Below are positions 53,775 to 56,563 of a stretch of 64,000 bases of DNA, in pieces. The stretch comes from Euzebyella marina (GTDB lineage: Bacteria; Bacteroidota; Bacteroidia; Flavobacteriales; Flavobacteriaceae): contig NZ_JACYFK010000002.1 of NCBI RefSeq assembly GCF_014855515.1, forward strand, positions 62,001 through 126,000, in the 5' to 3' direction. The notes under the pieces are model-generated. The model had not been told where the DNA came from. It searched no databases and saw only the letters and a list, made by a program, of their open reading frames with translations. The stretch's first letter is position 1. Every line of letters begins with the position of its first letter. The translations under genes and the position numbers were made by a program.

Positions 53775-53782
53775 TATATTTG
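53775..53782 (+). promoter_or_regulatory. -7 promoter element of the first sigma gene
   Basis: TATATTTG fits TAnnTTTG; the leader to the ATG at 53900 would be about 115 bases. Confidence 0.4.
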
Positions 53783-53899
53783 AGCCTAACAAAATGTTAA
53801 GAAGCCTATAGCATAAAATTACTTTTTACAGTTTAAAACGAGTTTCTACCGCGCCTTTTGAAAAAGATAGGTGTGCGTTTTTAATAAAAAGTAATAGCT

Positions 53900-54481
53900 A
53901 TGGATGTACAACTTGACGATTCCCTTCTTATTAAAAGATATGTGGCAGGCGATGAAAAAGCGCTTGAGGCCCTTATCGAAAAACACAATCAGCGACTGAG
54001 TAGTTTTATTTATTCAAAAGTCAATAGTCGCGATATTACCGAAGATATATTTCAAGATACCTTTATTAAAGTTATTCGAACTTTGAGAAGGGGTACTTAT
54101 AATGAAGAAGGTAAATTCTTGCCTTGGGTGATGCGCATTGCACACAATCTAATAATCGATCATTTTCGTAAAAGTAGCAGAATGCCTATGTTCGATGGTG
54201 CCGACACTTTTGATATTTTCTCGCTCATTAGTGATGAGAAGCTGAATGCCGAGCATCAAATAATAAAAGACCAAATTGACACCGATTTGGGCAAGTTGAT
54301 CAATGAACTACCAGCCGACCAAAGAGAAGTCTTGGTGATGCGTATATATAAGGATATGAGTTTCAAAGAAATTTCAGAGAATACAGGTGTTAGCATCAAT
54401 ACAGCTTTGGGAAGAATGCGATACGCTTTGATCAACCTTCGTAAGATAATTGAACAGAACGATATTCTTTTAACGATTTAA
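53900..54481 (+). CDS. Sigma-70 family (ECF-like) RNA polymerase sigma factor, copy 1
   Basis: A 193-aa alternative sigma factor made of region 2 (about 25-92, with ITEDIFQDTFIKVIRTLRRG and FLPWVMRIAHNLIIDHFRK) and region 4 (about 130-190, LPADQREVLVMRIYKDMSFKEISENTG and the helix-turn-helix VSINTALGRMRYAL). There is no region 3, as in ECF sigma factors. It should direct core polymerase to a special promoter set. It is followed by a 47-codon ORF and then by a terminator, and is about 77% identical to the next sigma gene. Confidence 0.92.
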   Translation: MDVQLDDSLLIKRYVAGDEKALEALIEKHNQRLSSFIYSKVNSRDITEDIFQDTFIKVIRTLRRGTYNEEGKFLPWVMRIAHNLIIDHFRKSSRMPMFDGADTFDIFSLISDEKLNAEHQIIKDQIDTDLGKLINELPADQREVLVMRIYKDMSFKEISENTGVSINTALGRMRYALINLRKIIEQNDILLTI

Positions 54482-54521
54482 TGTGCCATAGGTCGAACGG
54501 TTTCATTAAATTTATATTCGT

Positions 54522-54540
54522 GGCGTTAGAGTACTATAAC
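54522..54540 (+). promoter_or_regulatory. Conserved linker block, unit 1
   Basis: GGCGTTA, 6 variable bases, TATAAC (54522-54528 and 54535-54540). The same pattern with the same spacing occurs before the small ORF of unit 2 at 55710-55728. A CGGTTT also lies upstream in both linkers. It may be an internal promoter, an operator or an RNA element. Confidence 0.5.
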
Positions 54541-54556
54541 AATACGGATATTAGAT

Positions 54557-54700
54557 ATGGAAAAAATTTACTCTGCTGAACAAAAAGGAATAAAACAAGT
54601 AAAGGCTAGCGCTTCAACCGTAAAGTTTTTGTTAGATTATTCTAAATCATTGAAGTTTACCGAAGCAAAAGGAATCAAGTTCGAGTCGAACATGAATTGA
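54557..54700 (+). CDS. 47-aa small protein downstream of sigma copy 1
   Basis: The translation is 47 aa, starting MEKIYSAEQKGIKQVK, with the central STVKFLLDYSKSLKFTE and a tail ending KFESNMN. It has no signal peptide or membrane helix, is helical by appearance and basic. Conservation with the ORF at 55741 (23 of 47 identical, same length, no gap) shows that it is translated. It follows the sigma gene by 75 bases and is closed by a terminator 20 bases downstream. An anti-sigma or sigma-helper role is possible but unproven. Confidence 0.8.
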   Translation: MEKIYSAEQKGIKQVKASASTVKFLLDYSKSLKFTEAKGIKFESNMN

Positions 54701-54720
54701 TATTAAAGGTAACCAATAGA

Positions 54721-54756
54721 AAAAGGTCTTGAATCAACGATTCAAGACCTTTTTTA
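54721..54756 (+). terminator. Terminator of sigma unit 1
   Basis: AAAAGGTCTTGAATC pairs with GATTCAAGACCTTTT across a 3-base loop, a 15-bp stem followed by T residues, 20 bases after the small ORF. Confidence 0.92.
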
Positions 54757-55088
54757 GTTTTCACCACACTAATTTACCTGCATACAACCGCCTAAACCGC
54801 TATTCTGAGCCTTATAAAGCCTCTCTCTGTTAGTTGTTGAGTGCTTAATATCAGTAGTTTTGGCGATTTTCAACGCACGTATTTCACATTTATTTTATAG
54901 AAAACAGAAAATGTAGGGTTTCACATCAGAATCTGGCAGTTTGACAACAATGTTTTTTGTGCGAGGGTCAATCTTTCTAGTTTTATATCAGAATTAAAAC
55001 AAGCTATCCCCCAATAGATTAATTGAAATATAAACTAATGACCGTAAAGCAATCAAAATGATTGCCTCAAATCTTAAAAACTGCACGC
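54757..55088 (+). other. Gap between the two sigma units
   Basis: About 330 bases with no gene. Near the end is an inverted repeat GCAATCA-AAA-TGATTGC (55049-55065), 23 bases before the ATG of sigma copy 2. A 7-codon ORF (ATG ACC GTA ...) starts at 55038 and ends within the repeat. I see no perfect TAnnTTTG; TAGTTTTA at about 54980 is the nearest match. Confidence 0.45.
55049..55065 (+). repeat. 7-bp inverted repeat before sigma copy 2
   Basis: GCAATCA (55049-55055) and TGATTGC (55059-55065) around AAA. It could be an operator or a hairpin in the leader; copy 1 has no such repeat in its leader that I can see. Confidence 0.4.
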
Positions 55089-55670
55089 ATGAACCTACAG
55101 ACCGAAGACTCAGTATTAGTTAGAGATTACATCGCCGGAGATGAAAAAGCCTTGGAAATTCTAATCAACAGGCACAACCAAAGAATTACAAGCTTCATCT
55201 ATTCCAAGGTATTGGACAAAGACATTACCGAAGACATTTTTCAAGATACCTTTATTAAGGTAATACGTACCTTGAAAAAAGGCAACTACAGTGAAGAAGG
55301 TAAATTTTTGCCTTGGGTAATGAGAATTGCCCATAACTTGATCATCGACCATTTCAGAAAGAACAAAAGAATGCCAATGTTCGAAGGAAACGAAGATTTC
55401 AATATCTTTTCGGTAATCGGTGATGAGAAGTTGAATGCTGAAAAGCAATTGATCAAGGATCAAATCGATAGCGACCTTAGACATTTGGTAGAAGAATTAC
55501 CAGATGACCAAAAAGAAGTTTTGATCATGAGAATCTACAGAGATATGAGCTTCAAAGAAATCTCTGAAAACACTGGGGTTAGTATTAATACTGCTTTAGG
55601 AAGAATGCGATATGCCCTTATCAACCTTAGAAAAATCATTGAAAAGAACAACATTGTTCTAACAAATTAA
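55089..55670 (+). CDS. Sigma-70 family (ECF-like) RNA polymerase sigma factor, copy 2
   Basis: A 193-aa sigma factor with the same domain order as copy 1: region 2 (about 25-92) and region 4 (about 130-190). The stretch from DMSFKEISENTG to the end of ALINLRKIIE is identical in both, so both should recognise the same -35 element. Differences gather in the first 45 residues, around 97-110 and 130-136, where core or regulator contacts may lie. The ORF opens at a TTG at 55062; the ATG at 55089 gives the same length as copy 1. Confidence 0.92.
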   Translation: MNLQTEDSVLVRDYIAGDEKALEILINRHNQRITSFIYSKVLDKDITEDIFQDTFIKVIRTLKKGNYSEEGKFLPWVMRIAHNLIIDHFRKNKRMPMFEGNEDFNIFSVIGDEKLNAEKQLIKDQIDSDLRHLVEELPDDQKEVLIMRIYRDMSFKEISENTGVSINTALGRMRYALINLRKIIEKNNIVLTN

Positions 55671-55709
55671 TAATTAGAGACCGGTTTACAACAATATTTC
55701 ATATGTAGC

Positions 55710-55728
55710 GGCGTTATCCTTGTATAAC
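55710..55728 (+). promoter_or_regulatory. Conserved linker block, unit 2
   Basis: GGCGTTA, 6 variable bases, TATAAC (55710-55716 and 55723-55728), the twin of 54522-54540, 12 bases ahead of the small ORF. Confidence 0.5.
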
Positions 55729-55740
55729 TATGCTACTGAT

Positions 55741-55884
55741 ATGGAAAAAATCTACTCTGAAAACCTTGAAAAAGGTAAATTCGTAAAAACTAGTGCTGAG
55801 ACAATTCGATTTTTATTGGATTTCTCCAAACAGTTTCATGTAACGGAATTTAGAAACCTCCGATTTGAAAACAGTTTAAATTAA
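55741..55884 (+). CDS. 47-aa small protein downstream of sigma copy 2
   Basis: The translation is 47 aa, starting MEKIYSENLEKGKFVK, then AETIRFLLDFSKQFHVTE and ending FENSLN. The conserved core with its partner at 54557 is MEKIYS, K-VK-SA-T, FLLD-SK, TE, FE and the final N. No export signal is seen. The start lies 70 bases after the sigma stop; a terminator follows at once. I do not recognise a described family. Confidence 0.8.
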   Translation: MEKIYSENLEKGKFVKTSAETIRFLLDFSKQFHVTEFRNLRFENSLN

Positions 55885-55888
55885 TTAC

Positions 55889-55916
55889 AAAAAGCCCCAT
55901 TTAACGGGGCTTTTTT
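55889..55916. terminator. Terminator between sigma unit 2 and nth
   Basis: GCCCC (55894-55898) pairs with GGGGC (55906-55910), with A and T runs on either side that extend the stem; it serves both converging genes. The nth stop codon lies in the loop. Confidence 0.8.
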
Positions 55917-56563
55917 GATTTTAAATATTCTTTGAGAACTGATTTTCTACCAATTGTTTTGGTAATGATATCTTGATCTAGGTTCCAACCTCTGGCCGGT
56001 GAGTATTGTCTACCGTACCAAATAATCTGTAAGTGTAAGTCATTCCATATTTCCTCAGGAAAAAGTCTTTTGGCATCTCTTTCAGTCTGAACCACATTTT
56101 TCCCATTTGAAAATCCCCATCGGTACATTAGCCTATGTATATGAGTATCTACCGGAAATGCAGGAATCCCAAAAGCTTGCGAGACCACTACGCTGGCCGT
56201 TTTGTGGCCCACAGCCGGCAGTTCTTCAAGCAATGAGATATCTTGTGGCACTTCACCATCGTATTTATCGACCAAAATTTGCGAAAGCCCGTGAATACCT
56301 TTCGATTTCATAGGTGAAAGCCCTACGGGCTTAATGATTTCCCGAATTTCATCTACCGAAAGTTTAATCATATCGTACGGGTTATCTGCCCTTGCAAAAA
56401 GCAAAGGGGTAATTTGATTGACCCTTACATCGGTACTTTGGGCAGACATGAGTACGGCTACCAATAATGTATAGGGGTCTTTATGGTCTAAGGGAATAGG
56501 TATTTCAGGATATAATTTTTGAAGCGTATTTATTACAAACTCAACCTTTTCGGCTTTGGTCAT
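55901..56563 (-). CDS. nth: Endonuclease III-like DNA glycosylase without iron-sulfur ligands
   Basis: A 220-aa base-excision-repair enzyme with the helix-hairpin-helix ELPAVGHKTASVVVSQAFG, catalytic Lys121 and Asp139 (FPVDTHIHRLMYRWG), as in E. coli Nth. It lacks the C-terminal four-cysteine cluster loop: where other Nth proteins have C-x6-C-x2-C-x5-C it reads YGRQYSPARGWNLDQDIITKTIG. In fact the whole protein has no cysteine. The catalytic core looks intact, so it should still cut oxidised pyrimidines. It is divergent from bcp. Confidence 0.88.
   Translation of the reverse strand: MTKAEKVEFVINTLQKLYPEIPIPLDHKDPYTLLVAVLMSAQSTDVRVNQITPLLFARADNPYDMIKLSVDEIREIIKPVGLSPMKSKGIHGLSQILVDKYDGEVPQDISLLEELPAVGHKTASVVVSQAFGIPAFPVDTHIHRLMYRWGFSNGKNVVQTERDAKRLFPEEIWNDLHLQIIWYGRQYSPARGWNLDQDIITKTIGRKSVLKEYLKSKKPR

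Follow-up and report, generated by a model that had tools for sequence, protein, structure and literature searches.

The tandem arrangement of two ECF sigma factor genes in Euzebyella marina, each followed by an ORF encoding 47 aa, raises the question of whether such short ORFs are genuine genes and what connects them to the sigma factors behind which they stand. The locus lies in a 64,000-nucleotide stretch of DNA, the window, whose numbering is used below; all features given with coordinates are on its forward strand. An earlier note, made from the sequence alone, had recorded 148 identical positions out of 193 in an ungapped comparison of the two sigma factors and 23 out of 47 in the equally gap-free comparison of the small proteins, and both counts proved exact. 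Its idea that sigma factor and small protein act together has gained support from their co-inheritance, from the duplication of the whole module and from a conserved ECF promoter, but the note missed that promoter, the RNA leader of the sigma gene and the rarity of the duplication. We read each pair as an ECF sigma factor together with a small cytoplasmic protein dedicated to its regulation, which is most likely an anti-sigma factor of minimal form. This reading seems to us probable rather than secure, binding, inhibition and promoter use all being inferred from sequence.

Sigma A (53900..54481; 193 aa) matches Pfam Sigma70_r2 (1e-14) and r4_2 (2e-11) as well as TIGR02937 (3.5e-26), and sigma B (55089..55670; 193 aa) also has Pfam and NCBIfam matches. 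The start of sigma B was taken as the ATG at 55089; the mechanical ORF list gives a TTG at 55062. According to Pfam and NCBIfam, both proteins are ordinary two-domain ECF sigma factors of approximately 190 aa having sigma2 and sigma4 only, and among solved structures the chains of SigH, SigW and RpoE are nearest in sequence. An orthologue is present in 356 of 395 Bacteroidia genomes, usually as a single copy. The most conserved segment over 60 sigma factors of the class is the -35-reading helix SINTALGRMRYAL, each position of which is 94-100% conserved when the two window copies are counted in. Small A occupies 54557..54700 and small B 55741..55884, the latter with the ATG at 55741 taken as its start (TTG at 55720 in the mechanical list). 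Both are followed by terminator-like intrinsic hairpins, GGTCTTGAATCAACGATTCAAGACCTTTTTT with a U-run at 54720..54757 and AAAAAGCCCCATTTAACGGGGCTTTTTT at 55889..55917.

On comparative evidence, the ORF of 47 codons is a genuine gene and did not arise by chance. Used alone as a query, the sequence has homologues in 103 of the 150 Flavobacteriaceae genomes searched, nearly all of them free of internal stops, and the family consensus is M[EA]K[IL]YS...ETIxFLLNYSKxL..(K)FE..LN, in which Met1, Tyr5, the YSK serine and the Asn at the end show little or no variation. The synonymous sites of copies A and B are saturated (pS 0.86), so that the dN/dS comparison of the two copies once suggested for this locus is unusable. 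Close orthologue pairs, taken within clades at pS below approximately 0.4 (wider pairs were left out on account of synonymous saturation), gave values mostly between 0.05 and 0.24. The claim of selection on translation is thus borne out by the homologues and by the low dN/dS of close pairs, and both window copies belong to a conserved family under purifying selection. Searches of the 47-aa proteins against Pfam and NCBIfam returned zero family matches.

Whether homologues of the small gene follow this sigma factor elsewhere had been left as a question, and they do so almost always in Flavobacteriaceae, where the order is uvrA(-) sigma(+) small(+) nth(-) bcp(+) (80 loci with the sigma gene). 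Outside the family, 70 of the 87 small-protein matches having a listed sigma position are located behind the sigma orthologue in the same orientation, at a distance of 54-450 nt. A small ORF was found less than 900 nt downstream of the sigma gene in 48 of 60 class loci, a non-random sample of which 20 had been picked for having a small-protein match, and further candidates were added by eye at L212, L218 and L230. Among 395 Bacteroidia genomes, a profile trained on the family has matches in 138 and a profile trained on the class in 206, the latter training being partly on the same genomes. Judged by these matches, the module of sigma and small gene is found across the class Bacteroidia, in many of its families, with the small protein in longer forms. 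Most of the separated small genes examined adjoin nth without a gene in between, and in several bcp and recA come next. Family f4 is among those whose small gene has left the sigma gene and yet remains a neighbour of nth, which counts against a regulator of the sigma factor. At the f4 loci L178, L179, L181, L183 and L184 the small gene, apart from the sigma gene, stands ahead of nth-bcp-recA, which suggests that the order sigma-small-nth-bcp-recA is ancestral.

The gap between the two genes carries a promoter-like element. Alignment of the sigma-small gaps revealed ACAATA, exactly 15 nt and CGTT(A), approximately 30-40 nt ahead of the small start; in the window, the ECF-type promoter of small B spans 55691..55716, with ACAATA at 55691-55696, a spacer of 15 nt and CGTTA at 55712-55716. 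The exact pattern CAATA-N15/16-CGTT occurs in 48 of 57 single copies, in 23/23 B copies and in 0/23 A copies, and CGTT is present in all 103 family gaps, whether single, A or B; the remaining nine single-copy gaps have kept CGTT and changed the -35. Outside Flavobacteriaceae the motif was found in 34 of 48 gaps (approximately 0.035 expected from shuffles), and CGTT stands upstream of the small gene in every listed class gap. The element shows the sequence features expected of an autoregulated ECF promoter: -35 and -10 boxes are both conserved, their distance is that of ECF promoters, the -10 is of CGT type, and a gene of the module follows. In Flavobacterium psychrophilum, CGT-box promoters have been assigned to ECF sigmas (PMC9723704). 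The conservation is observed directly. That the small gene's own ECF-type promoter depends on the neighbouring sigma factor is inferred, with indirect support from the near-invariant helix SINTALGRMRYAL, which parallels the fixed -35 box. The strict promoter was also used to scan the genome of Euzebyella marina and four related genomes for a regulon. In its own genome there are six matches, as many as for the reversed-pattern control, and only the small-gene site among them has an ORF start within 60 nt downstream; two further matches lie outside long frames, again with no ORF start within 60 nt. Strict matches at other sites of the genome do not exceed chance, and the scan thus brought no wider regulon to light. 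In many small genes, at L164, L166, L169, L205, L233 and other class loci, GCCT, GCTT or GCGT immediately precedes the ATG. The string GCCTAT before the small ATG is the same as in the 5' box of the sigma leader, and a short hairpin with upstream GGCAA is possible at some small-gene starts.

The sigma gene, in turn, has a conserved upstream region. TAnnTTTG is found approximately 100-138 nt upstream of many single and A copies, and none was found upstream of B copies; this is the primary-sigma consensus mapped in F. psychrophilum (PMC9723704). At sigma A the corresponding -7 box is TATATTTG (53775..53782). It precedes a structured 5' leader RNA at 53802..53908 (covariance model 72.6 bits), in which stem P2 (53818-53827/53886-53895) pairs AUUACUUUUU with AAAAAGUAAU and stem P1 (53806-53812/53897-53903) pairs CUAUAGC with GCUAUGG, the AUG lying inside P1. 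Over 53 leaders, 90.6% of the P1/P2 cells are paired, compared with 43-53% in slid registers. Compensatory changes on both sides, at nine pairs, amount to 53 cells against 20.3 in shuffles (0/500 shuffles). A conserved secondary structure backed by compensatory changes is what was required of a cis-regulatory leader. The covariance model, built from many of the same loci as were searched, recovers 69 of 80 loci, before single or A copies and never before B, and in Euzebyella strong scores occur once per genome. An Rfam search of the leader gave no score above the gathering cut-off, the sole match being a sub-threshold miRNA on the opposite strand, and the F. psychrophilum study does not name it in its text on leaders (PMC9723704).

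Outside Flavobacteriaceae the leader sequence differs and the pairing is kept. The strand with the UAC box binds the start region with a mean of -8.26 kcal/mol, compared with -5.60 (sd 0.25) when partners were swapped among loci, a permutation that is not fully independent owing to related loci in the sample. GGAGG is found no more than 20 nt from the start in 22 of 60 class sigma genes, in 0/48 small genes and in 4/45 other ORFs, although ribosomes in this class generally disregard SD sequences (PMC9976891). In Flavobacteriaceae sigma genes the SD is gone and the pairing of the start is kept. Among the sigma genes of other orders, those at L158, L159, L198, L206 and others have AAAAAAGGAGG or similar before the ATG, unusual for this class, paired with CCTCTACTTTTTT-like leader strings. 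Folding predictions, which are the only evidence here, keep the AUG paired at approximately 99% or higher at temperatures between 4 and 42 C. An RNA thermometer was rejected on the grounds that the leader is not predicted to melt in this range, which makes a trans-acting signal more likely than simple melting; that the leader responds to a trigger at all is an inference.

The duplication itself is the exception, most genera having one module. Tandem modules occur in Maribacter, Arenibacter, Kriegella, Ulvibacterium, Pricia, Muriicola and Eudoraea relatives. The nearest neighbour belongs to the same copy class for 43 of 46 sigma factors and 45 of 46 small proteins, from which it follows that the module was duplicated as a unit. 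Copy A has kept the primary promoter, the leader and CGTT (the -10-like CGTTA of small A is at 54524..54528) and has lost ACAATA; in copy B, sigma B of the window included, the conserved leader is absent and ACAATA-CGTT is kept. The regulatory parts therefore appear, from the alignments, to be divided between the copies, and this may allow the two small proteins to be made under different conditions, although that is inference. The recognition helix of sigma A is unchanged despite the loss of the -35 in copy A, which counts against our main reading. Two further elements were seen around these copies. Directly 3' of the sigma A stop, the gap alignment shows GGTCGAAC (54491..54498), of which the same or a close variant is found in A copies and in single copies of the same clade (L049, L057, L059) and which is missing from most B copies; its role is unknown. 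Upstream of sigma B (window 54960-55088) lies the string TAGTTTTATATCAGAATTAAA, with similar strings before the B copies L033, L037, L043 and L045; it may be a primary-sigma promoter whose -7 box departs from the consensus.

What the small protein does has to be judged mainly from its longer relatives. The statement that no anti-sigma domain is visible holds for the 47-aa form, but not altogether for the class forms of approximately 70-90 aa, which are weakly similar to anti-sigma N-terminal domains. These follow the pattern MHKTFTxxDVIRFAYxEMxxxEEAAFxxELxxCxETVAELxxIxxTxEWLDExxxxPKHSTIQxLLNYSKSL..., and three of them match the NCBIfam anti-sigma model NF052375 with E 4e-4 to 4e-3, far below the curated cut-off. 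With hhalign, the long forms align with RskA-type anti-sigma N-terminal domains of the same class over 61 columns (E 1.9e-5; control against the sigma, E 0.42), and the C-terminal part of these long forms is matched by the 47-aa family at E 2.6e-9, all E-values being those of single comparisons; compared directly with anti-sigma domain profiles, the 47-aa family gave no match. The likeness of the long forms, resting on weak profile matches of helical sequences, is weak but specific. Profile and sequence searches of the PDB with small and long forms gave nothing significant, nor did Foldseek find a match with the model of the small protein. AlphaFold2 models small B with approximately 18 unstructured residues, one helix (19-31) and one beta hairpin (32-45) at pLDDT 75. 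Of the features of a class I anti-sigma domain (ASDI), the gene stands beside its cognate ECF sigma; helices 1-3 are not met by the 47-aa form, although the long class forms do align there; and the link to helix 4 is indirect, leading from the 47-aa helix through the C-terminal part of the long forms to the helix-4 end of RskA-type domains. In class I anti-sigma factors helix 4 binds sigma regions 2.1/2.2 and makes most contacts (PMC7406223). The parsimonious reading, for which there are no binding data, is that the small protein is an anti-sigma factor reduced to the sigma2-binding helix 4 and a C-terminal tail. Sigma and small gene of copy A are in frame if TAA/TAG is read as a residue, and AlphaFold2 gave this sigma A-linker-small read-through pLDDT 71 and pTM 0.49; no interface was judged.

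If the small protein is such an anti-sigma factor, the sigma mRNA would arise at a primary-sigma promoter, and the leader would keep it from being translated until something opens the structure. The sigma factor would then drive the ACAATA/CGTT promoter of the small gene, and the small protein would use its ETIxFLLNYSKxL helix, which corresponds to helix 4 of class I anti-sigma domains, to bind the sigma factor, probably at sigma2. Thus bound, it would bar the sigma factor from core RNA polymerase, giving negative feedback. In the Euzebyella marina lineage this module would have been doubled, A retaining the primary promoter and leader and B the canonical small-gene promoter. The suggestion of a tiny regulator is in this respect supported, but action of the small protein on the sigma factor is still inference.

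The linkage and promoter data would fit equally well if the small protein were instead a positive partner of the sigma factor, helping in holoenzyme assembly or promoter binding like Crl or RbpA and closing a positive feedback, and the 47-aa form without anti-sigma helices 1-3 speaks for such a partner too. The long relatives, however, look like anti-sigma domains and not like known activators, and we consider a positive partner unlikely, if not to be dismissed. The small protein could also be an output of the sigma factor and make no contact with it, acting in stress or DNA repair, as the nearby uvrA, nth, bcp and recA might suggest. Its gene has its own sigma-type promoter, usually stays with nth when apart from the sigma gene (bcp and recA being next in several loci), and strict promoter matches elsewhere do not exceed chance; yet it is mostly sigma-adjacent across the class, the module was duplicated whole and the long forms resemble anti-sigma domains, and we hold an effector to be rather improbable.

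It could further be asked whether the short transcript, with promoter and terminator of its own, is mainly a small RNA in which the ORF is secondary. In F. psychrophilum, Rfp11, described as a putative regulatory RNA, is transcribed from an SM6 promoter with a CGT box (PMC9723704); it has not been shown to be the same locus. Conservation of the protein sequence, the low dN/dS of close pairs and the absence of internal stops in nearly all homologues speak against a mere RNA, which we regard as very improbable indeed.

The rpoH thermometer is a start-site-sequestering mRNA leader and, like the sigma leader, hides the translation start, whereas the sigma leader is predicted not to melt. The rpsU gene of Bacteroidota is SD-dependent (PMC9976891), and many class sigma genes similarly carry a rare strong SD; the rpoH and rpsU leaders differ in sequence and gene from the sigma leader. 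With the class I anti-sigma systems of RseA/RskA/ChrR type (PMC7406223) the module shares the adjacency of sigma and regulator genes, and its long class forms show the anti-sigma N-terminal domain pattern followed by a helix 4-like segment. In contrast, the 47-aa form is without helices 1-3, membrane segment and zinc site, and the small gene has its own intergenic promoter where an operon would be transcribed jointly. In EcfO-Reo of Bacteroides/Phocaeicola, too, an ECF sigma of Bacteroidota has its own regulator encoded alongside (PMC13114119). It was rejected as the same system, Reo being large and said to span every compartment from cytoplasm to cell surface, with no such feature in the small protein (PMC13114119). 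The SM6 promoters of F. psychrophilum likewise carry a CGT box around -10 and are attributed to ECF sigmas, but SM6 was a pooled motif to which no particular sigma could be firmly tied (PMC9723704), and the text consulted makes no mention of an ACAATA -35 or of this sigma-small pair.

In a published survey only 6% of Bacteroidetes ECFs had a recognised class I anti-sigma factor beside them, and control of the rest was left open (PMC7406223). In its widest form our proposal is a new class-wide ECF module, in which a start-codon-pairing leader gates translation of the sigma factor, hiding a rare SD in many orders, and a soluble anti-sigma factor pared to the sigma2-binding helix is made from the sigma's own ancient promoter; we advance it tentatively, as a serious possibility rather than an expectation. 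It brings together a small protein without a Pfam or NCBIfam family, a deeply conserved promoter and a leader RNA that Rfam does not cover. The module offers a concrete, testable answer to the control of one conserved, usually single-copy sigma factor of Bacteroidia and, if true, would be among the regulators missing for Bacteroidetes ECF sigmas. If a single helix and tail restrain the sigma factor, this would set a lower size limit for anti-sigma factors, and the SD-bearing leaders of other orders could tie the sigma factor to the SD-blind ribosomes of the class.
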